Shown piece after piece: positions 44,097 through 58,232 of a stretch of 64,000 nucleotides of DNA. Each line of letters opens with the position of its first letter. The stretch's first letter is position 1. The notes beneath the pieces are model-generated. The model saw only the letters and a program-made list of their open reading frames with translations, was not told the DNA's origin and did no database searches. The DNA lies in assembly GCF_017875325.1 (NCBI RefSeq), contig NZ_JAGGMN010000001.1, positions 682,001 to 746,000 of the forward strand. The letters run 5' to 3'. This DNA is from Methanofollis sp. W23. Its GTDB lineage: Archaea; Halobacteriota; Methanomicrobia; Methanomicrobiales; Methanofollaceae. The translations under genes were made by a program, and so were the position numbers.

Positions 44097-44459
44097 ATGG
44101 GAAGGATCTTAATCGTCGATGATACGCTCTTCATGCGGACTCTCCTGAAGAACATCCTCTTCTCTGGAGGGCATACGATCGTCGGTGAAGCCGAAAACGG
44201 CGAAGAGGCGATCGCTAAATACCAGGAATTGAAGCCCGACCTCGTCACGATGGATGTTGTCATGCCAAAGAAGAACGGCATCGAGGCACTCCAGGGGATC
44301 AGGGAAGTCGACCCCCATGCCAGGGTGGTCATGTGCACCGCGGTGGGCCAGGAACAGATGGTGAAATTGGCGGTAAAAAGCGGTGCAAAAGGCTACATCG
44401 TCAAACCATTCCAGGCCCCGAAAGTACTTGAGGAGGTGAAAAACGTCCTTGGGGCCTGA
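44097..44459 (+). CDS. cheY: Chemotaxis response regulator CheY
   Basis: Single receiver domain, 120 residues. Acidic pocket DD near residue 8-9, phosphoacceptor D53 in LVTMDVVMPKKNG, T81 in VVMCTAVG and K103 in GYIVKPF are all in place. Phospho-CheY binds CheF and the archaellar motor to change rotation direction. It is the first gene of a tight che operon; cheB starts 2 nt after its stop. Confidence 0.95.
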   Translation: MGRILIVDDTLFMRTLLKNILFSGGHTIVGEAENGEEAIAKYQELKPDLVTMDVVMPKKNGIEALQGIREVDPHARVVMCTAVGQEQMVKLAVKSGAKGYIVKPFQAPKVLEEVKNVLGA

Positions 44460-44461
44460 TC

Positions 44462-45496
44462 ATGATCAGGATTCTAATTGTCGATGACTCGGTCTTTATC
44501 CGCACGATACTGAGGGACATCTTCAGTAAATCGCCTGAGATTGAGGTGGTGGGGGTTGCGTCTGACGGTGCTGAGGCGCTCAAACAGATCGATATTCTCA
44601 AACCGGACGTGATGACTCTCGACATCGAGATGCCGAAACTCAACGGTCTCCAGGTGCTTGAGGGGATGAAACGCTGTCGGCACCGGCCAAAGGTGATGAT
44701 GCTCAGTTCTCTCACGGCAAAAGACGCGGAGCACACAAAAAAAGCCCTGGCTCTTGGCGCCGACGACTTCATGCTCAAACCCACCGAGATCTTCAAGGTC
44801 CGGGGGATCGAGGAGGAACTGGTCACCAGGATCAAGCACCTCATCGAGATCAAGCCTGCGGTCAAGGTCGCAGGGCGCCGGGACCGGGTCGCCAGCACGG
44901 TGGTCCTCTTCGGCTCTTCGGCCGGGGGACTCCAGCAGCTCGATCTCGTCCTCTCCAGACTCTCGCCTGATCTGGGGGCGGCAATCGTCGTGACCCAGCA
45001 TATGCCCGCGGGGTTCACGGCCGCTCTTGCCGAGCGGTTCAACCGTATCTGTCCTCTTCCAGTAAGGGAATCTGAGAACGGGACGGTCCTGATGGAAGGT
45101 GAAGTCGTCATCTCAAAGGCCGGGTATCACTCCCTGATTTCGGCGGTGCTCACCAGGAACGGGACTCGTGGGGGCAAGATCATCCATTCCTCGGCGCCCC
45201 CGGTCCATGCGGTACGGCCGGCAATTGACAAGACCTTCTCGTCAGGGGCGAAGATATTCAAAAATCGCACCCTTGCCGTCGTGATGAGTGGTATGGGGAA
45301 TGACTGCGGTGCCGGTGCCGCCGATGTCAGGGCCGCCGGCGGGACGGTCTATGTCTGTAAGGAACACGACTGCCTGGTCTATGGTATGGCCCGTTCAGCA
45401 CTCAAGACGAACTGTGTCAACCAGGTGGTCTCCCTGCGGCACATCCCCGAGGAAGTCATGAAGACGGTCAAAAAAATGGAGGCAGTACATGGCTGA
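44462..45496 (+). CDS. cheB: Chemotaxis methylesterase CheB
   Basis: Removes methyl groups from, and deamidates, chemoreceptors. Residues 1-125 are a receiver domain (D54 in VMTLDIEMPKLNG), joined to the esterase domain with catalytic Ser in FGSSAGGLQQL, His in VTQHMPAGFTAAL and Asp in VVMSGMGNDCGAGAADV. The length, 344 residues, is usual. The stop overlaps the cheA start by 8 nt. Confidence 0.95.
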   Translation: MIRILIVDDSVFIRTILRDIFSKSPEIEVVGVASDGAEALKQIDILKPDVMTLDIEMPKLNGLQVLEGMKRCRHRPKVMMLSSLTAKDAEHTKKALALGADDFMLKPTEIFKVRGIEEELVTRIKHLIEIKPAVKVAGRRDRVASTVVLFGSSAGGLQQLDLVLSRLSPDLGAAIVVTQHMPAGFTAALAERFNRICPLPVRESENGTVLMEGEVVISKAGYHSLISAVLTRNGTRGGKIIHSSAPPVHAVRPAIDKTFSSGAKIFKNRTLAVVMSGMGNDCGAGAADVRAAGGTVYVCKEHDCLVYGMARSALKTNCVNQVVSLRHIPEEVMKTVKKMEAVHG

Positions 45497-47450
45497 TATG
45501 GAGGACTATAAAGAACTCTTCGTGGTGGAGTCCAGGGAAAGCAATGAGACTATCGCCCAGGCGATCCTGAACCTGGAGGAGTGCAATGACCGGGAGACTA
45601 TCGACGAGATCTTCAGGTCGGCGCACACCATCAAGGGTGCCTCGGCGTCGATGGGTTTCATGAACCTGGAGAAACTTTGCCACACAATGGAGGACGTCTT
45701 CGACCTCATCAGGAACGACAAGATCGTGGTCTCGGCACCACTCATCGATGTCCTGCTCGGGTGTACCGACGAGATCGAAGACCTGCTCGATTCGATCGAA
45801 GGCGGGGGGACCGACCAGGGAGAGAATATCGAAGACCTGGTCACGGCTCTTGAGAACTGTAAGGCAAGCGGGGACCGGGACGATCCGCCGGGGGCCGGGG
45901 CTCCCGAGACAGAAGAAGACGGTTCCGGGGATCCTGAAGACGGAGAAGATCCTGGCGACGAGCCGAGTGCAGGTGAAGCCTCCGGGAACGGCGCACGCTA
46001 CCGTGTGACCGTATCCATTGTGTCAGGGAGTTCGATGAAGGACGTCCGTGCCATGATCGCCCTCTCGAACCTGGACGAGATCGGCACGATCATCTCGACC
46101 ACCCCGTCGGTCGAGGCGATCGAGGACGGCCAGTTCGAGGACTCCTTTGAGACCATCATCGAGAGCGAGGTCGGAACTGAGGCGATCCAGGCGGCCGTCT
46201 CAGGGACCGACATCGCCGGGGTGGAGGTCGCGCCGGCAGACGCCCCTCCTGCTCCCCCAAAAAAGAAAGAGAAGAAAGAGACCAAGAAACAGAAGTCCGA
46301 CCACCGCGGGAAGACGCGGGAGATCAAGAACATCAGGGTGGATATCCACCTCCTCGACCAGATGATGAACCTGGTCGAGGACCTGGTCATCAACCGTGGT
46401 CGCCTCAAACAGATCGCCCAGAAACACCAGATCAAGGAGTTTGATGAGGCCCTCAGTATGGTCGGGCGCTCGGTGGCAGATCTCCAGAACCTGATGATGC
46501 ATATCAGGATGATCCCGTTGAGCCATATCTTCAATCGCCTCCCGAGGGTCGTACGTGACGTGGCCCAGCAGGAGGAGAAAGAAGTGGACTTCATCATCGA
46601 GGGCGGGGAGACCGAACTCGACAGGAGTGTCATGGACGGGCTCAACGATCCTCTCCTGCACCTGATCAGGAACGCCGTCGACCATGGGATTGAACTCCCT
46701 GAAGACAGGAAGGCCGCCGGAAAACCTGAGAAGGGGGTCCTCCGTCTTTCGGCAAAGCGGGACCGCGACAATGTCGTCATCAGGATCGAGGACGACGGTG
46801 CCGGGGTCGACGTCGAGAGGGTCAGGGCAAAGGCCGTCTCAAGAGGATTATATTCTGAAGAAGATGCCGCCTCTCTCTCAGAGGAACAGGTCGTCGACCT
46901 TCTCTTCAGCCCCGGGTTCTCGACCGCCGAGACGATCACCGACATCAGCGGCCGCGGGGTCGGGCTTGACGTGGTGAAGGCCGCGATCGAGTCGATGAAG
47001 GGTTCGATCAATGTCAGATCGGTCGAAGGGAAGGGCACCTGTTTTGAACTGGTCCTGCCGCCGACGATGGCCATCGTCGAGGTGATGATGGTCAGGATCA
47101 ATGGCCGGCGGTGTGCGATCCCGATCAGCAACGTGGTCGAGGTTGCCATCCTCAAGACGGAGGCCGTCCACCGTGTCGGGACCAGCCAGGTGATCCTCCT
47201 GCGCGACGAGGTGCTTCCCATCCACCTGCTCGACGATATGTTCGGCGGGTCCAACCACGGCGAGGTCCTTGTGGTCCTCCAGAACAGTTCGAAGAAATGC
47301 GGTATCGTGGCCGATGTCGTCGAAGGACAGCAAGAGGTCGTCGTCAAACCGCTCAGCACTCTTATCGGGAGTTGTCCGGGCGTGGGCGGCGTGACCATCC
47401 CTGGTGATGGCGAGGTCGTCCCGGTTCTTGATGTAAATACCATGATCTAA
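45489..47450 (+). CDS. cheA: Chemotaxis histidine kinase CheA
   Basis: Sensor kinase of the chemoreceptor array, 653 residues. HPt domain with H46 in FRSAHTIKGASASMGF; an acidic linker (about 130-165); a P2-like region; a basic linker PPKKKEKKETKKQK before the dimerisation helices (DQMMNLVEDLVINRGRLKQI); ATPase with N box HLIRNAVDHGIELP, G1 EDDGAGVDVERV and G2 GRGVGLDVVKA; and a C-terminal CheW-like domain (MAIVEVMMVRINGRRCAIPI). No separate cheW gene is in the window. The ATG lies inside the end of cheB, so the two are translationally coupled. Confidence 0.95.
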   Translation: MADMEDYKELFVVESRESNETIAQAILNLEECNDRETIDEIFRSAHTIKGASASMGFMNLEKLCHTMEDVFDLIRNDKIVVSAPLIDVLLGCTDEIEDLLDSIEGGGTDQGENIEDLVTALENCKASGDRDDPPGAGAPETEEDGSGDPEDGEDPGDEPSAGEASGNGARYRVTVSIVSGSSMKDVRAMIALSNLDEIGTIISTTPSVEAIEDGQFEDSFETIIESEVGTEAIQAAVSGTDIAGVEVAPADAPPAPPKKKEKKETKKQKSDHRGKTREIKNIRVDIHLLDQMMNLVEDLVINRGRLKQIAQKHQIKEFDEALSMVGRSVADLQNLMMHIRMIPLSHIFNRLPRVVRDVAQQEEKEVDFIIEGGETELDRSVMDGLNDPLLHLIRNAVDHGIELPEDRKAAGKPEKGVLRLSAKRDRDNVVIRIEDDGAGVDVERVRAKAVSRGLYSEEDAASLSEEQVVDLLFSPGFSTAETITDISGRGVGLDVVKAAIESMKGSINVRSVEGKGTCFELVLPPTMAIVEVMMVRINGRRCAIPISNVVEVAILKTEAVHRVGTSQVILLRDEVLPIHLLDDMFGGSNHGEVLVVLQNSSKKCGIVADVVEGQQEVVVKPLSTLIGSCPGVGGVTIPGDGEVVPVLDVNTMI

Positions 47451-47480
47451 GAAATTGCATCATAATCTTTGAGGAATATC

Positions 47481-48095
47481 ATGAAACTAACAGAAATACA
47501 GACAGATGCACTCGAAGAACTCGGAAACATCGGGGCGGCCCATGCCGCGACGACCCTCTCCCAGATGTTGATGAGCAATATCGAGATGGACGTACCGGCG
47601 GTCGACATCATCGATATTGCTGATTTTTACCAGAATGTGGGTGATGAAAAAGTCGCCCTTGTAGTCTTCAGGATCAAGGGGGAGGTCGCGGGCGAGGGCT
47701 TTGTCGTGATGTTGATGCCGCTCAAGTCCGCGATCAGGATGACCAACACCATGCTCGGCATGGGTGATACCGAGCGCGAGATCACCGAGATGGATGAGAG
47801 TGCCATCATCGAGATCGGGAATATCATGGTCTCGGCCTTCCTTGATGCGACGGCAGGTCTCCTTGGTATCGTCATGCTCCCCTCGCCCCCGTCCCTCTGC
47901 ATCGATATGGGACATGCAGGACTTGAGGCGCTCATCGCCGAGGTCGCTACTGATACCAATGATGTGGTCGTCTTCAGGACCAAACTGACCTCTGGCCAGC
48001 ATGCGATTGACGGGACGATCCTGATGTTCCTGACTCCAGAGATGCTTGAGAACCTGCTCAATCTCCTTGAGGCACTTACCTCTCAGGGGATCTAA
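47481..48095 (+). CDS. cheC: CheY-P phosphatase CheC
   Basis: Class of CheC phosphatases that dephosphorylate CheY-P and interact with CheD, 204 residues. Both active-site helices are visible: DALEELGNIGAAHAATTLSQ and ESAIIEIGNIMVSAFLDATA, each with the E-x2-N pattern. I use ATG 47481 with GAGG in front; the frame from 47469 has no ribosome site. Lies 30 nt after cheA and 15 nt before cheD. Confidence 0.94.
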   Translation: MKLTEIQTDALEELGNIGAAHAATTLSQMLMSNIEMDVPAVDIIDIADFYQNVGDEKVALVVFRIKGEVAGEGFVVMLMPLKSAIRMTNTMLGMGDTEREITEMDESAIIEIGNIMVSAFLDATAGLLGIVMLPSPPSLCIDMGHAGLEALIAEVATDTNDVVVFRTKLTSGQHAIDGTILMFLTPEMLENLLNLLEALTSQGI

Positions 48096-48110
48096 GGGAG
48101 ATAGCATATC

Positions 48111-48602
48111 ATGGCCGAGTTTCGACCTGCTGATGTCAATGCCCGATTTATAGGAATCGGTGAGTACTATGTGGGGGAAGACCCCATGACCACCATCGGG
48201 CTTGGCTCATGTATCGCTCTGATCCTCCATGACGAGCGGCATGGTGTCGGAGCCATGGCCCATGTGATGCTCCCTGAGAGCAAAGGCCAGGCCGACCGCC
48301 CCGGGAAATATGCAGACACTGCGCTTGGGGTTCTGCTTGAGGGACTTGAGAGGTTTGGGACGAGAAACGGTTCGCTCAGGGCAAAGATGGTGGGCGGGGC
48401 CAATATGTTCGGGTTTAATGACAACAATCTCAACATCGGTGAACGGAATATCGAGGCGGTGCACATGATGCTGGACCAGCAGCGTATCTCCCTGATCGCC
48501 GAGGATGTCGGGGGAAAAGTCGGACGATCGGTGATCTATGATCCCGGAGCGGGCGGCGAGATCGTGGTAAGGAGAGCGGACGGGGCATGCGTCGAGCTGT
48601 AA
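48111..48602 (+). CDS. cheD: Chemoreceptor deamidase CheD
   Basis: Deamidates glutamines of chemoreceptors and binds CheC, 163 residues. The catalytic Cys is C34 in TIGLGSCIALILHD, the His is H51 in GAMAHVMLP, and the Thr lies in KYADTALGVLL. The remaining family segments AKMVGGANMFG and GERNIEAVHMML are intact. The 3' end overlaps the propeller gene by 16 nt, so this unusual neighbour is in the same transcript. Confidence 0.94.
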   Translation: MAEFRPADVNARFIGIGEYYVGEDPMTTIGLGSCIALILHDERHGVGAMAHVMLPESKGQADRPGKYADTALGVLLEGLERFGTRNGSLRAKMVGGANMFGFNDNNLNIGERNIEAVHMMLDQQRISLIAEDVGGKVGRSVIYDPGAGGEIVVRRADGACVEL

Positions 48603-49624
48603 TTTTCATTGTCTTTGCCTGCATCGCATGCACTGCAATCGCGTCTGCAAACCTGACGGTATTTCAGCCTTCGTATGGCGGCCTCTCCGCTACCAATGTC
48701 TATGACTGGTGCAATGGCCCTGACGGCGAGGTCGTGGCGGCGACCGCGCGGGGACTCTCTGTCTTTGACGGGGAGAACTGGACGACCTATCATAGACCTG
48801 CGGGCTATGTGCCTGAGAGTCTCATCTCAGAGACGATCCTCTCGGTGGAGTACGGGCCGGATAATACGCTCTGGCTCGGGACAACCCTGGGCCTGCAGTC
48901 TTTTGACGGCCAGTCTTTTCACACCCTTGCCACGCAGGATCAGTTGAAGAACCCGGCGGTGATCGCCTTGCAGCGCTGGGACGATGCGATGTGGGTCGAG
49001 ACGCGGAACAGCGGTGTTCACCGTGTGGAAGGCGGGAACTGGACCTGGTACAAACCGTTCGCGCCCGGGTCACCGGCAAGTTATGCCCTGGAAGATATGG
49101 CTCTCGATCCTGAGGGGCGTTACCTGTATTGTCTCTCAAAAGAGGGGCTCTGGGCCATCGAGGAGAACTCTACGGGGGGGTTCTCTCAGGTGACCATGGA
49201 CGGCATGTCGCTTCGCGGGTACGAGGGGATCAGGACCGATCCCTTTGGCGGGGTCTATCTCTTCAATCGCAGTCAGGTGGTCCACCTTGATGCGGCCGGG
49301 AAGGTGGCGCCGGTGCTCGGGTGCGGGGACTTCGAGAGAGTGGGCATCAGGGTCCAGGACCTTGGTGCGGCACCTGACGGGGCGCTCTGGGTGGCGACGA
49401 ATTACGGGATCTTCTGCTGGAAGAACCTGAGGGTCGTCGAGGAGATCGGGCGTCCGGATGGGATCTGGGCACGGTCCATCAAGACGGTCTTTCCTGACCA
49501 GGCGGGGCGGTGCTGGTTCTCCACTTCGACGTGTGTAGGGTACTCGCCTCTTCACAGTCAGACCGGTACAGCGATCTCCTTTGTGGGGCCGGCGCGCTGG
49601 GACGGGAACCTGCGTCTGCAATAG
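48587..49624 (+). CDS. Secreted beta-propeller (two-component-regulator-type repeats)
   Basis: A 345-residue protein with a signal peptide (AVIFIVFACIACTAIASA) and then repeated Reg_prop-like blades. Each blade has a hydrophobic strand and a DG/W motif: VVAATARGLSVFDGENWTTY, TLWLGTTLGLQSFDGQSF, DAMWVETRNSGVHRVEGGNW, ALWVATNYGIFCWKNLRVV and CWFSTSTCVGYSPLHSQ. Such propellers usually sit on the outside of sensor kinases; here the propeller is a free secreted protein. Its ATG lies inside cheD. I know of no role for it in chemotaxis; it could bind a ligand or the cell surface. The 3' end overlaps the opposite-strand gene by 67 nt. Confidence 0.78.
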   Translation: MRRAVIFIVFACIACTAIASANLTVFQPSYGGLSATNVYDWCNGPDGEVVAATARGLSVFDGENWTTYHRPAGYVPESLISETILSVEYGPDNTLWLGTTLGLQSFDGQSFHTLATQDQLKNPAVIALQRWDDAMWVETRNSGVHRVEGGNWTWYKPFAPGSPASYALEDMALDPEGRYLYCLSKEGLWAIEENSTGGFSQVTMDGMSLRGYEGIRTDPFGGVYLFNRSQVVHLDAAGKVAPVLGCGDFERVGIRVQDLGAAPDGALWVATNYGIFCWKNLRVVEEIGRPDGIWARSIKTVFPDQAGRCWFSTSTCVGYSPLHSQTGTAISFVGPARWDGNLRLQ

Positions 49625-50769
49625 GCCTCCACTGAGTTGAGATAGGCTTTTTTTGCTTTTTTTACCCTGGTCTCGTCCTCTGAGAGGATGTCGTGAGAGA
49701 GATAGTTGATGAGCGTGAGGTAGTGGTCCTGCGAGGGGTAGGTCTCTTTCATGGCCTGTATGCGGGTGTATGCGTCTTTTTCATGCCCTGAAAAGAGGGA
49801 GAACGAGAGGTCGAGGAAGCCAAGGACGTCGGGCGGCATCTTTTTTTCTCCGGCTTTTTTCCTGAAGGTATGGTAGCCTGAGCGTGTCCTGGTCCGCAGC
49901 GCGAGGAGCATGCCGTAGTAGTCTGGTTCGCTGCTTTCCGGTGCCTGCTGGAGCATCTGTTTGACGATGTCGGCCGCGCCGGTTCCATCTCCTTCGTCGA
50001 TGGCAAACTGGAATGCTTCGCGCAGGACACCCATGTTGTTCCCGAAGCGGGTAAGGGCGATCTTGAGGGTCTCTCGTCTCATCTCGTGGTTGTGATCGGT
50101 ATGTGCTTTTTCAAGACCGAGTTTGATGAAGGCGGGGTTGCTCGGGAACCAGTCGATGGCACTTGAGGTCATCAGCCAGAAGATCCTGGTGAGGGCGGGG
50201 TCGGCGGTGTACGGGAGGGAGGAGGCGACGGTCTGGTGGGTGCGTGCGAGTTCGAGCATCTGTTCTCTGGCCCGGAGTTCCATCTCGCTTGGGGCTTTGA
50301 TGTTCTTGAGTTGTGCGACTTCTGAGAGGGAGAGGGCATAGTAGCAGTAGGCGAGGGCGATGTGGATCAGGGGGTCCCGGGAACGGTATTTCCTGAGGTA
50401 TGGGAGTGCGTGTGCAAATTCTCCGGCCTTCATCATCCTGAACCCGGCGGCGATCTCGACGCCGGCCCGCGGGTTTTTTCCTCGTTTGAGTCGTGCGGCA
50501 TGTTCGACGACGCGGTCGACAAAGGTAGGGTCTGAGCCCCTGGGGGAGGTCTCAAGGATCTTGAAGCTGATGGCGTCAAGGAAGGTGTCGTGGTCTCCCG
50601 GGTCGAGGTGGGGAAATGAGGATTCGAGTGTGGAGACGACATGGCCATAGAAGACTGGAAGTTTTTCGTCGATTTTATGATGGTTGGACTGGATGTATCC
50701 AAAGAAGTCCTGTTTCAGGGTCTCGATTTTGTCATAGTGCACCGCTTCAGAGAGAGTCTCGCCGCGCAT
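49558..50769 (-). CDS. Helical-repeat (TPR-like) protein, uncharacterised
   Basis: A 403-residue, mostly helical cytoplasmic protein. The middle has TPR-like helix pairs, for example AGFRMMKAGEFAHALPYLRK and IHIALAYCYYALSLSEVAQL, and AFIKLGLEKAHTDHNHEMRR. The first 120 residues have charged helices (KIETLKQDFFGYIQSNHHKI). I do not recognise a specific family. It ends on the last 67 nt of the propeller gene on the other strand, so transcripts from the two sides collide. It may be a scaffold, but this is a guess. Confidence 0.72.
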   Translation of the reverse strand: MRGETLSEAVHYDKIETLKQDFFGYIQSNHHKIDEKLPVFYGHVVSTLESSFPHLDPGDHDTFLDAISFKILETSPRGSDPTFVDRVVEHAARLKRGKNPRAGVEIAAGFRMMKAGEFAHALPYLRKYRSRDPLIHIALAYCYYALSLSEVAQLKNIKAPSEMELRAREQMLELARTHQTVASSLPYTADPALTRIFWLMTSSAIDWFPSNPAFIKLGLEKAHTDHNHEMRRETLKIALTRFGNNMGVLREAFQFAIDEGDGTGAADIVKQMLQQAPESSEPDYYGMLLALRTRTRSGYHTFRKKAGEKKMPPDVLGFLDLSFSLFSGHEKDAYTRIQAMKETYPSQDHYLTLINYLSHDILSEDETRVKKAKKAYLNSVEAYCRRRFPSQRAGPTKEIAVPV

Positions 50770-53831: not shown

Positions 53832-54620
53832 TTACTTCTTGGTATAGACCTTCTGGATCGGGTCAAAGGGGGCGAAAAGGGCCTCGACGTCGCGTCCCAG
53901 GTATTCGGTCTTGCCCATCACATAATACCCGTCCATCCTGAGGGCGTCATGGATCATCCGCACCAGGTCGGTCTTCTGCGCTTCATTGAAATAAATGGTC
54001 ACGTTCCTGCATGAGACGATATCCAGGAATCGGGCTGCCGGGATATTGGACATCAGGTCATGATAGGAGAAGCGGATCATCGCTTTCAGTTCGGGCTTTG
54101 CCTCGTACTTCCCGTCGTCCCTGTGGAAAAAGTGCTTCTGGATCTCTCTTTCTTTGAGGTTCTTGAGGGCCCTCGCGTCGTACACCCCTTCCCGCGCCCT
54201 CTCGAGGACCTTGCGGTCGATGTCGGTCGCATAGATGGTGCAGTCGATCTCGTGGGTGAACGAGAGATCCCTGGCAAGCATCGCATAGGTGTATGCCTCT
54301 TCCCCTGTGGCGCACCCTGCACACCAGATCCGCACCCGCGTCTTCTTCTCCAGGATCTCTGGGAGCACCTGCGTGCGCACCACCGAGAAGACTTCGGGGT
54401 CTCGCAGGAACTCGGTCACATTGATGGTGAGGGCGTTCCTGAGACGGTCTTTCTCCTCCTCCTCAGAGAGGAGATACTTGTGATAGTCGGCAAATGAATC
54501 ATTCCCTGAGATCCGCATCCTGGAGAGGACGCGGCGGCGTATGTAGTCTTCCTTGTAGTTGGAGGTCTTGATCCCTACCACACGCTCGATAGTCCGGTTG
54601 AGTGCTACAAAGTCGTCCAT
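53832..54620 (-). CDS. cheR: Chemoreceptor methyltransferase CheR
   Basis: Methylates glutamates of chemoreceptors using SAM, 262 residues. The N-terminal helical part (IERVVGIKTSNYKEDYIRRR) recognises the receptor; the catalytic part has RIWCAGCATGEEAYTYAML (SAM loop), TIYATDIDRKVLERAREGVY, YHDLMSNIPAARFLDIVSCR and NVTIYFNEAQKTDLVRMIHD. It follows the receptor gene by 18 nt in the same direction. AGGGA precedes ATG 54620. Confidence 0.95.
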   Translation of the reverse strand: MDDFVALNRTIERVVGIKTSNYKEDYIRRRVLSRMRISGNDSFADYHKYLLSEEEEKDRLRNALTINVTEFLRDPEVFSVVRTQVLPEILEKKTRVRIWCAGCATGEEAYTYAMLARDLSFTHEIDCTIYATDIDRKVLERAREGVYDARALKNLKEREIQKHFFHRDDGKYEAKPELKAMIRFSYHDLMSNIPAARFLDIVSCRNVTIYFNEAQKTDLVRMIHDALRMDGYYVMGKTEYLGRDVEALFAPFDPIQKVYTKK

Positions 54621-54638
54621 GGTGTGTCCCTTGAATTA

Positions 54639-57251
54639 CTATTTGGTCTTGAAGGTGTCCATCTTTATTTTCAGGTCTCTTGAGAGCTCAGTGAGCTCAT
54701 GGGCGGCGCTGCCGACCTCCTGCGTCGAGGCGCTGACCTCTTCGGCGAGGGCGGCCATGTCTTCTGTCTGTTTGAGGTTTTCTTTCGTCTTGCCTGCGGC
54801 CGATTCCATCATCTCCATGATCTTCCCGGTCTCCCCGGCCTGGTTCTCGGTCGCCCGGGTGATCTCGGTGATCGCGTTCGCTGCCTCGCCGATATCGACA
54901 CTGATCCTGGAGAGGACCGTGATCGCACGGTTGACGCTCTCGATCCCCTCCTCGATCTCCTGGTGAGAGGCCCGCATCGACTCGGCGGTCTGCTCGCTCT
55001 CCTTCTGGATGGAGGCGATCAGTTCCTCGATCTGCTGGCTTGCCTCTCTGGAATCACCTGCGAGGTTCCTGATCTCGCCTGCGACCACCGAAAAGCCCCT
55101 GCCGTGTTCGCCGGCCCGCGCCGCCTCGATCGCGGCGTTGAGGGCAAGCAGGTTGGTCTGGCTGGAGATCTCGTTGATCAACTTTACGATCTTTGTGATC
55201 TCGTGCATCTGGGTGTTGAGGTGCCCGATATCTTTGACAGTCTGCTCAGAGATCGTCCCGACGGCTTCCATCTTCTGGGACGCGACCTTCCCGATCTCGG
55301 CACCATGCCGCCCGTCCTCGGCCGAAGTCAGGGCCTTCTTCATGACTTCCTGGGTGGTGCTTGCGATCTCTTCGATGGATGCGGAGAAGTCGGCGATGCT
55401 CCGGTTCACATTCTCGATGCTCTCCAGGAGGTCGCGAGAGGACTCCGAGGAACTCTGGGTCGCGATGGCCACCTGTTCGGTGGCCTTGCTGATTTCGGCT
55501 GCGCCTTTTCCAGTCTCCCCGGCCGTCTCCTTCACGACGTCCACGGCCTGGTTCACCTCCCCGATGATCGCCCTGAAGTTCTCAAGCGAACGGTTGTAGT
55601 TGGCCTTCACCCCCGCGAGGAGGTCGTCTTCTTGAATTGCAACGCTGGTGGAGAGATCGCCGCACGCCGCGGCTTCCATCACCGCGGCAAGGTCGGCGGC
55701 ACTCTTCTCAAAACTCTGTGCCCGCTCGTCGGCCTCGGTCATGAGCGCCCTGATCCTGTCCTCCTTCTCGCGCTGAGAAGTGACGTCATTGTAGACGATG
55801 ATGATGCTCGCGATCTCGCCGTCCGCGGAGAGGAGCGGGATGCCGTACTGCTCAAGGTTGTGGGTGCCGCTCGGGAGTTCGACCGTCACTTCACCATAAC
55901 AGCGCCTTTTATGCTGGAGAGTCTGCTTGAGCCCTTCGCCTTTCTGTTCGAGCACCCTGAAAGAACGGATGTTCGTCCCTTCCAGGTGCTCGTATGGGAT
56001 CCCTGACATCGCGGCGTAGGCCTCATTTGCCGAGATGACCGTAAAGTCAGGGGTGATGAGGAGGATGGGCATCGGGTTCTGCTCGATGATCGTCTGCGAG
56101 CGGGCCTGGAGATCTTTGATCTCGGCCATCTCCTCCTTGAGTCGCGCCTCGTTCTCTCTGACCTCGGTGATGTCGTAGAAGATAAAGAGCCCCCGGTCGG
56201 TCCGGCCAGTCTTGGTGCGAAGCGGGATGCCGTACTGATCGACGATCTTGCTCCTCTTTCCGATGCTGAGTTCGAGCGTCGACCTGGTCTTCTTCCCCCT
56301 GGAGAAGACATGGCTGTTCCTGTCCCCAGCAAGATGCCTGATTGTAGCACGGCCCTTTGCGCCAGAGAGGAGGCGTTCCCTGGAGTCTTCCATCAAGGTG
56401 CAGTAGGCGTCGTTGAGGGCAAGCACCTGCAGGTCCTTGTCGATGAGAGCCATCGGCATCGGGTTCTCCTGGAAGACGGTCTTCAGCCAGATGTCGGCCT
56501 TCTGCTTCTGTTGCATCTGGGAGAAGATCTCCTCGATTACGCCGGCAAGTTCCCTGAGTTCATCGGGGTAGGAGGCGCTGTCCAGGTGAAGGAAGGCGTT
56601 CCCGTTGAAGGTGTGCCTGATGGTGTCGGTCAGTTTCTGGACTGATTCTTTTGACCTGACCGCCTCCTCCTTCAGGTCTGCAAGGGTCGCCTGTTCCTCC
56701 TGCATTCTGAGGATCTCTGCTTTCAATCCTGCAACCTTCGCCTCGTCCTCATCGGTCGTCCTGGTGGTCTCCTCTTTCAGTTCCTCAACTGCCGCCTGTT
56801 CCTGCTGCTGTATCCTGGCCGTTTCTTCTTCCAGTCGTGCAACCTTTGCCTGCTCCTCCTGCACCATGCTCAGGGTGCGGTTGAAGACCCAGGCAAGTGG
56901 CTGCAGGGGGGAAGGGAGGACGTCGGTCTCGACCGGTGCGGGGGACGTACTGGAGAGGGCCTGCTCCAGGGTGCTGGTGAGTTCGACGACCGCGTCGTCT
57001 GGCACACCTGAAGGTGTCGTCTCTTCCTGCATCCTTGCGATGACGCCGGTGACTACGTCGGTAAGGCCCCTGAGTTCTTCAGGGACTTCTCTGGTCTCCA
57101 CTTCGACCGAGAAGTCACCGTCCAGCGCCCCTTGCAGTGCCGTTGCGAGGGCGTCGACCCTCTCCACCAGGGCTTCACGTTCCTCTTCACTCCCGTTCAG
57201 TGCCGCGGGTTCGGCAAAAAGCGCCTGTCTTCCTGGTTTTTCTGAAATCAT
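54639..57251 (-). CDS. Soluble methyl-accepting chemotaxis protein with two PAS domains
   Basis: Cytoplasmic chemoreceptor of about 870 residues without membrane helices. After a HAMP-like and coiled-coil N-terminus (about 20-270, with [20 protein letters not shown]), PAS domains occur at about 280-400 and 405-520. The signalling hairpin has the conserved tip [20 protein letters not shown] followed by [14 protein letters not shown]. The sensed signal is probably redox, oxygen or a small ligand inside the cell. I use ATG 57251 with GAGGTG in front; ATG 57254 and GTG 57260 are near alternatives. The gene lies between parA (21 nt) and cheR (18 nt). Confidence 0.93.
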
Positions 57252-57272
57252 CATCTCCACCTCTGTGTACGA

Positions 57273-58100
57273 TCAGTCCCACTCGCCGACAAAGGCCGCA
57301 ATCTCCCTGTACGCCGCCGCCGCCTGACATTCCGGGGCATAGTGGGAGATCGGGAGCCCGTGTTTCTGGGCTTCAGGAACCTCGCGGGAGAAGGGAATCT
57401 TCTCCACCCTGAGAAATGTCCTGGCCGCCTCGGCCTCGACCGGGTCTCTGTTCTCTTCGTCATGCTCCTGTGCAAACCGGCGTTTCATCCAGGAGAGAAA
57501 CCCTTTCGGTCTCTCCTCAGGGGGCGAGCGCGACGTGATGAGGGCCATCTCGGCCCTGATCTTTACGCCGATATGCTCCTGGATGTCCCCAAAGATGGCC
57601 TTCATCGTCGCCACCCCCCCGAGAGCGAAGAACCCTGAGTCCAGGGTGACGACGACATGGTCGGCCGCGACCATGCCGTTGATGACGAGTTGCCCCATGC
57701 TCGGCGGTGTGTCGATGAGGACGAGGTCATAGTCTGTGGCCTCCTTCGCAAGGATGTCTCTGAGGATAGTCGCCCGCTCCTCGACCGAGTAAAGGAAAGG
57801 TTCTGCCCCGACAAGGTCGAGAGAGGAGGGGAGGAGATCGATTCCTGAATCGGTCTGGACCACCACTTCCTTAAGACCGACCTGAGGGAAGTCGTCGACG
57901 CGGCCCATGAAGAGATCATAGATACTTTTCTGGTAAGACCCCGGCCCGACACCGAGACCTGAGGTTGCATTTGCCTGGGGGTCGCTGTCCACGACCAGGA
58001 CTTTCTTCCCTGCCTGCTGGAGAAACCCCGCGATGTTGAGGCACGAGGTCGTCTTGCCGGTCCCTCCTTTATGGTGGGCAAATGCGATACACCGAATGAT
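57273..58100 (-). CDS. ParA/MinD-family ATPase next to a chemoreceptor gene
   Basis: Deviant Walker ATPase of the ParA family, about 275 residues. The P-loop HHKGGTGKTTSCLNIAGFL is read in frame upstream of the first GTG (57992), followed by VLVVDSDPQANATSGLG, DYDLVLIDTPPSMGQLVING and VVTLDSGFFALGGV. No ATG, GTG or TTG occurs between the in-frame TAG and the P-loop; the best starts are ATC 58100 or ATT 58097, placed after GGGTGAG. A frameshift, base change or sequencing error is the alternative. Directly followed by mcp and cheR, so it probably positions the receptor cluster, as ParC/PpfA do in bacteria. Confidence 0.82.
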   Translation of the reverse strand: MIRCIAFAHHKGGTGKTTSCLNIAGFLQQAGKKVLVVDSDPQANATSGLGVGPGSYQKSIYDLFMGRVDDFPQVGLKEVVVQTDSGIDLLPSSLDLVGAEPFLYSVEERATILRDILAKEATDYDLVLIDTPPSMGQLVINGMVAADHVVVTLDSGFFALGGVATMKAIFGDIQEHIGVKIRAEMALITSRSPPEERPKGFLSWMKRRFAQEHDEENRDPVEAEAARTFLRVEKIPFSREVPEAQKHGLPISHYAPECQAAAAYREIAAFVGEWD

Positions 58101-58232
58101 CTCACCCTGCTCCTGCTATGAGAATTTCGCATGATCCATTATAAAGATTTATATTTTGTAAATTTTTAATATGTGATATTCTTTTATTTCGATCGGTTAT
58201 TCTGTCTTTATTTCCCTTAAAATTCTAAATAA

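Follow-up and report, generated by a model that had tools for sequence, protein, structure and literature searches.

In Vibrio, the adaptor ParP joins an ATPase-binding N-terminus to a domain resembling CheW and the P5 domain of CheA, and its authors reasoned that the same N-terminus, if fused to another core-unit component, might also recruit chemosensory arrays (PMC5706961). N-terminal basic peptides on unrelated cargo are general activators of ParA/MinD ATPases, with TlpT as a suggested case (PMC7993993; PMC10241942), and in the archaeon Haloferax volcanii, MinD4 and MinD2 affect the placement of the chemosensory array (PMC11588486). The organisation of the archaeal cell interior is largely open, and in the literature we found, only these Haloferax MinD proteins have been tied to array placement; our search of open-licence literature on archaeal ParA and chemotaxis returned no report of the module described here, which is not proof of its absence. 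This module is a parA-mcp-cheR operon of the methanogen Methanofollis sp. W23, which lies in a stretch of 64,000 nucleotides (nt) of contig NZ_JAGGMN010000001.1 (hereafter, the window; Table 1) and encodes a ParA ATPase, a soluble methyl-accepting chemotaxis protein (MCP) and the receptor methyltransferase CheR.

Judging from sequence and structure prediction, we consider it likely that the operon serves, in the manner of PpfA and TlpT, to position the one chemosensory array of the cell, which is probably cytoplasmic. Methanomicrobiales that carry it, more than half of those sampled, would probably handle the array like some bacteria, positioning it or apportioning it. The module offers a well-delimited pair of ParA and putative cargo, spread over the order, whose short peptide lends itself to testing in vitro.

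The operon and its conservation

All three genes lie on the minus strand, with the ATG of mcp (57251) 21 nt past the parA stop and cheR 18 nt past that of mcp. This is the arrangement proposed in the initial annotation, with which coordinates and domain matches agree; the description of the receptor as a soluble MCP with two PAS domains is likewise borne out, both by its Pfam matches (MCPsignal, E=3e-43, plus PAS domains) and by a negative transmembrane-segment prediction for 54639-57251. Both CheR domains were matched in the cheR protein, and the main che operon is present in the window at 44097-48602. As in a PpfA/TlpT-type pair, parA adjoins the gene of a soluble chemoreceptor.

The linkage of parA to mcp, whose conservation in Methanomicrobiales had been singled out as a point to check, is kept across the order and also outside it. 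Among 120 Methanomicrobiales genomes, with Methanoculleus, Methanoregula, Methanospirillum and Methanolinea among the relatives, parA orthologs were found at 68 loci in 67 genomes, with E-values almost 60 orders of magnitude away from those of other ParA/MinD matches. A chemotaxis array gene follows parA in nearly all of these loci, usually with cheR next, and the order of parA and an array gene bearing the N-terminal tag described below is kept in 67 of them, the remaining locus (L104) being cut by a contig end. Since the upstream helicase gene adjoins parA in no genus but that of the window, the linkage of parA to array genes is not background synteny. CheA is present in 66 of the 67 parA genomes as well, and the exception is an 82% complete genome. 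In two genomes of the window's genus, G021 and G062, MCP matches number four and six, respectively, but neither CheA nor a parA ortholog was matched; as G021 is 98% complete, a joint loss of CheA and parA may have occurred.

Outside the order, Methanophagales (ANME-1; L245-L253 and L171, the latter from the same genome as L244) carry a parA with about 45% identity, and the gene after it starts KIRKPGRKALFEDVE; at L250, this tagged gene encodes a HAMP-rich MCP and is followed by cheW. The Omnitrophota bacterium L173 has parA, a 1322-amino-acid MCP starting MAKPIRQAAKKALF, a looser form of the tag, and then cheW. In an archaeon of another family (L254), parA precedes an mcp with RRAGRKVLF, again a looser tag, and then cheY, cheB, cheA, cheC and cheD. 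In a tree of Soj-type, ANME-1, Omnitrophota, cyanobacterial and other archaeal ParAs, a set from which PpfA and ParC were absent, the Methanomicrobiales, ANME-1, Omnitrophota and L254 proteins fall together with two cyanobacterial ParAs on one side of a branch (support 100/99), with the Soj-type ParAs on the other. What emerges looks like one array-positioning logic in methanogens, ANME-1 and Omnitrophota. As for cyanobacteria, cheA, cheW and cheR lie near one ParA gene (L175, 1830-6793), and in Trichodesmium (L186, 4953-10099) ParA precedes a HAMP-rich receptor starting MTIPKKRNSGLQVFF; a ParA-positioned array in cyanobacteria is possible.

The ParA protein is best explained as an ATP-dependent Soj-type ATPase. 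All top Foldseek matches of its AlphaFold2 (AF2) model (predicted local distance difference test score, pLDDT, 87.8) are Soj proteins, including the Helicobacter pylori Soj-DNA-Spo0J complex, the motifs HHKGGTGKTT and LIDTPPSMGQ of the ParA branch of ParA/MinD ATPases are present, and K10 and K15 are invariant in the ortholog alignment. With chromosomal Soj proteins as its closest solved structures, ParA might be taken for a partition protein of the usual chromosomal kind, or for a division protein of the MinD type, with a receptor as its chance neighbour. This is extremely improbable, however: the protein reaches 68 bits against the archaeal MinD model (minD_arch; cut-off 202), its clade in the tree differs from that of the parB-linked ParAs, and its linkage is kept across the order, all of which disfavours a partition or MinD function. 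Its C-terminus (...AAFVGEWD) carries no membrane-targeting helix of the MinD kind. No parB adjoins parA in the loci examined (parS was not searched for); its neighbours are mcp or a PAS-cheW gene, usually with cheR.

The N-terminal tag and the single array

When the N-termini encoded by the receptor-like genes after parA were read, a shared start became apparent, typically MIDKPGRKALFTG with the core G-R-x-A-L-F. A search for GRxALF at a gene start downstream of parA and on the same strand found it in 67 of the 68 loci (one locus has an extra chance match in a non-receptor frame); in five loci with an extra mcp (L073, L083, L088, L099 and L103), the tag sits on the next gene of the tandem, which resolves these apparent exceptions. 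Where the start is defined (61 genes), the construction of the search itself dictates G, R, A, L and F; outside its pattern, K or R stands two positions before G in 60, P before G in 55, K after R in 53 and G two positions after F in 50. Basic and conserved, the N-terminal peptide of the putative cargo, (K/R)PGRKALF, gives the module a further property of a PpfA/TlpT-type pair.

The tag goes with parA. It is absent from all 25 unlinked receptors examined in eight genomes, and a genome-wide search with the DNA pattern PGR(K/R/Q)ALF gave 74 matches, 54 of which lie within 6 kb of parA, compared with about nine matches in all for the reversed control pattern. This pattern search of the sampled genomes found no tag copies in genomes without parA. 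One contig (G078:C1) holds two complete parA-tagged mcp loci, L079 and L092, whose tags are METIGRKALF and MADERKRPGRKALF.

In an alignment of 15 linked receptors, conservation is 0.93 over residues 5-12 and 0.49 over the next 48. The first 20 residues of the receptor are predicted to be disordered (pLDDT near 35) in an AF2 model of the full protein from which, given its low predicted template modelling score (pTM) of 0.28, only the disorder of the tip and the rough secondary structure were taken. A tag that is conserved though predicted to be disordered is as expected of a short linear binding motif. The suggestion that the N-terminal coiled coil of the MCP might hold a ParP-like adaptor motif is supported in part: a ParA-partner-like motif is present at the N-terminus, but it is a terminal peptide, predicted to be disordered, outside the coiled coil.

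In the loci fetched, ParB genes adjoining Soj-type ParAs start LGRGLDALI, LGRGLEALL or GKGIDALL, and the N-terminus of H. pylori Spo0J, MAKNKVLGRGLADIF, likewise has a G-R pair, whose Arg9 is the key contact on L50-G51-F52 of ParA in the H. pylori complex (PMC11229316). The L-G pair of H. pylori Soj (HpSoj) is invariant in the orthologs described here. The tag resembles the ParA-activating N-terminus of ParB, and we infer that it may act likewise. Alternatively, it could bind DNA directly and tether the array to the nucleoid, as does the positively charged N-terminal tail of FrzCD in Myxococcus (PMC5716589), leaving ParA with another role. We regard this as very unlikely, given that basic residues are few in the tag (two or three), that its hydrophobic ALF is fixed and that it was not found where parA is missing.

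In nine loci (L048, L049, L070, L082, L078, L164, L165, L167 and L172), the tagged protein is no receptor and consists of PAS and a C-terminal CheW domain (Pfam); in several of these, an MCP is encoded as a further gene. Because MCP and CheW proteins are both array members, these carriers support the view that the job of the tag is to connect the array to ParA, and since about one array component per genome carries it, arrays would be linked to ParA through this tagged component. In the window, where the receptor itself is tagged, there is no separate ParP-style adaptor with an ATPase-binding N-terminus and a CheW-like domain.

The initial annotation assigned the receptor to an array separate from the main che operon, for which we find no support. 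Every CheA-bearing genome of the sample, that of Methanofollis sp. W23 included, has exactly one CheA (PF02895), on which ground we reject a second, separate chemosensory pathway; several genomes, e.g. G004 and G010, yielded no MCP other than the parA-linked receptor, and transmembrane segments are missing from each of the six receptors encoded in the genome of the window. For these reasons, the parA-linked receptor more likely serves the single array, which in Methanofollis sp. W23 is likely cytoplasmic, and the CheA at 45489-47450, as the only one in the genome, must be the kinase that it uses.

We propose that the soluble receptor acts as the cargo adaptor of ParA. Its disordered N-terminal peptide, typically M-x-(D/E)-(K/R)-P-G-R-K-A-L-F, would bind the ATP-bound ParA dimer and trigger ATP hydrolysis, as the ParB N-terminus does, and its signalling domain would insert the receptor into the array of CheA and CheW. 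What we infer from the sequences is that the peptide binds ParA, that it activates the ATPase and that the array is placed or segregated in this way.

The working surface of ParA and the start of its gene

Several points weigh against the positioning module proposed here. Within the order, 24 CheA-bearing genomes are without a parA ortholog, the tag falls short of the ParB motif in length, and Phe52 of HpSoj, which stacks on the ParB arginine, is mostly Ile or Val in the orthologs. The operon linkage could also reflect a role in the assembly of arrays, not in their placement. Finally, the orthologs do not have the basic DNA contacts of a canonical ParA: at the aligned positions of K227, K230 and K247 of HpSoj, which we take, with support from PMC7229837, to be the DNA-contact residues of Soj/HpParA, they have F/Y, mostly non-basic residues and E/D. 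In this patch, Soj-type ParAs read IPRN(V/I)(K/R)L(S/A)EAP, whereas the chemotaxis clade mostly reads VP(Y/F)xxx(I/V)xEAQ.

Because the canonical contacts are missing, the usual nucleoid ratchet cannot be assumed. A version of the module in which ATP-bound ParA covers the chromosome and, by a diffusion ratchet, moves the array or sets its spacing, like PpfA with TlpT in Rhodobacter, seems to us plausible, if somewhat short of probable. The fold of ParA is closest to the nucleoid-binding Soj, the receptor is soluble and without a membrane anchor, and PpfA is itself chromosome-associated and acts through the TlpT N-terminus (PMC3964821). The replaced contact residues, set against the IPRNxK/R kept by Soj-type ParAs, argue the other way, although DNA binding can use other residues, as MipZ illustrates (PMC7229837).

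Loss of the canonical DNA patch would fit another version, in which an internal helix (about residues 196-212) binds the membrane like the MinD tip and ParA keeps arrays in place, or spreads them, along the membrane or at the pole. Many orthologs have FLKRIF, FIKRLFG or FLKRLFG in this stretch, the same letters as in the tip KGFLKRLFGG of Escherichia coli MinD. Yet the stretch is internal, variable and not kept in all orthologs, the version in the window is very basic and moderately hydrophobic, and its hydrophobic moment is no higher than that of the equivalent Soj helix, with Soj helices scoring alike. On balance, a membrane-acting ParA appears rather unlikely, but we retain this version beside the nucleoid one.

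A further peculiarity concerns the start of parA. The window's gene has no ATG, GTG or TTG in frame from the upstream stop to the Walker A motif, and its first canonical in-frame codon is the GTG at 57992. Such codons are likewise missing ahead of Walker A in 28 further parA loci, which together with the window's span about 13 genera by hand count. Seven residues before HHKGG, the codon is ATT, ATC or ATA in 58 of the 68 ortholog loci, ATG in nine and ACG in one, and a Shine-Dalgarno-like word lies at suitable spacing from the start codon in 61; the tagged genes, with starts read similarly, have ATG in 56 of 61 cases. In Methanoculleus-type loci, an in-frame GTG three codons upstream, within the Shine-Dalgarno-like word, makes the choice of start less certain. 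Across the order, parA appears to start at a non-canonical AUU, AUC or AUA; a literature search on non-AUG starts in archaea gave nothing specific to parA. The gene end of 58100 given in the initial annotation is off by one codon, because ATT 58097-58095 starts the open reading frame and no canonical start precedes Walker A.

Given such a start, gene callers that accept ATG, GTG and TTG only would truncate parA and remove Walker A, and this loss of the ATP site could partly explain why the protein was overlooked. A natural guess is that the AUU-type start keeps the supply of ParA low or regulated. All of these features might be combined in an archaeal ParA lineage that has lost the nucleoid patch, acts at the membrane by an internal MinD-like helix, is recruited by a portable tag that moved between receptor and CheW in the course of evolution and, through an AUU/AUC/AUA start conserved across the order, is made in smaller amounts than its tagged partner, a combination that we think improbable.

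Elsewhere in the window, a Reg_prop (two-component regulator propeller) protein is encoded immediately after cheD (48587-49624, plus strand). The 3′ end of a TPR protein gene (49558-50769, minus strand) overlaps it on the opposite strand, and this TPR gene remains close to parA-mcp-cheR within the genus.

Table 1. Features of the parA-mcp-cheR operon and of the main che operon in the window of Methanofollis sp. W23
Feature	Position	Strand	Basis
parA, 274-aa (amino acids) Soj-type deviant Walker A ATPase (HHKGGTGKTT), read from ATT codon	57273..58097	-	AAA_31 E=4e-47; AF2 pLDDT 87.8; Foldseek; conserved in 68 loci
parA initiation region: Shine-Dalgarno-like GGGTGAG (58101-58107) and ATT start codon (58095-58097)	58095..58107	-	No canonical start; orthologs
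ParA residues 196-212 (PKGFLSWMKRRFAQEHD), family-specific variable stretch, hydrophobic-KR helix, possible membrane or DNA contact	57462..57512	-	Ortholog alignment; low pLDDT; helix comparison
mcp, 870-aa soluble chemoreceptor: N-terminal tag, coiled/HAMP-like region, PAS, PAS, MCP signalling domain	54639..57251	-	Pfam; no transmembrane segment; AF2 secondary structure
Tag KPGRQALF, receptor residues 5-12, proposed ParA-binding/activating peptide	57216..57239	-	GRxALF conservation; predicted disorder
MCP signalling domain, array-forming part	54804..55298	-	PF00015 (contig 736804-737298, window offset 682000)
cheR, receptor methyltransferase, third operon gene	53832..54620	-	PF01739 and PF03705; follows in most orthologous loci
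cheA of the main che operon, sole CheA of the genome	45489..47450	+	PF02895, single match per genome

Comparison with known systems

With ParABS (Soj-Spo0J), the module shares the fold, the Walker motifs and an N-terminal partner peptide in which G-R/K is followed by hydrophobic residues, but it has no adjoining ParB, its cargo is an array component and its DNA-contact residues are replaced. MinD4 and MinD2 of Haloferax, which the initial annotation leaves unmentioned, provide the archaeal parallel of ParA/MinD-superfamily proteins that affect array placement. They belong to the MinD family, however, and also affect archaella (MinD2 cell shape as well), whereas the ParA of the window falls far below the archaeal MinD model and is encoded in a parA-mcp operon.

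In the PpfA-TlpT system of Rhodobacter (Cereibacter) sphaeroides, compared here by description and not by alignment of the sequences, a ParA-like ATPase is likewise encoded beside the soluble receptor of a cytoplasmic cluster (PMC3964821), and the N-terminus of this receptor is the partner of the ATPase (PMC3964821; PMC7993993). The present module differs in being archaeal and accompanied by one CheA, hence no second dedicated array, in carrying its tag partly on CheW-type proteins and in missing the canonical DNA-contact residues. In ParC-ParP of Vibrio, a ParA-like ATPase recruits arrays via an adaptor (PMC5706961), and the PAS-CheW carriers described here have the same layout; in the window, by contrast, the adaptor would be the receptor itself, and the CheW-type carriers combine PAS with Pfam CheW domains. 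With its putative ATPase-binding part on a receptor or a CheW-type protein, the module would provide a natural example of the arrangement about which the Vibrio ParP work had reasoned.

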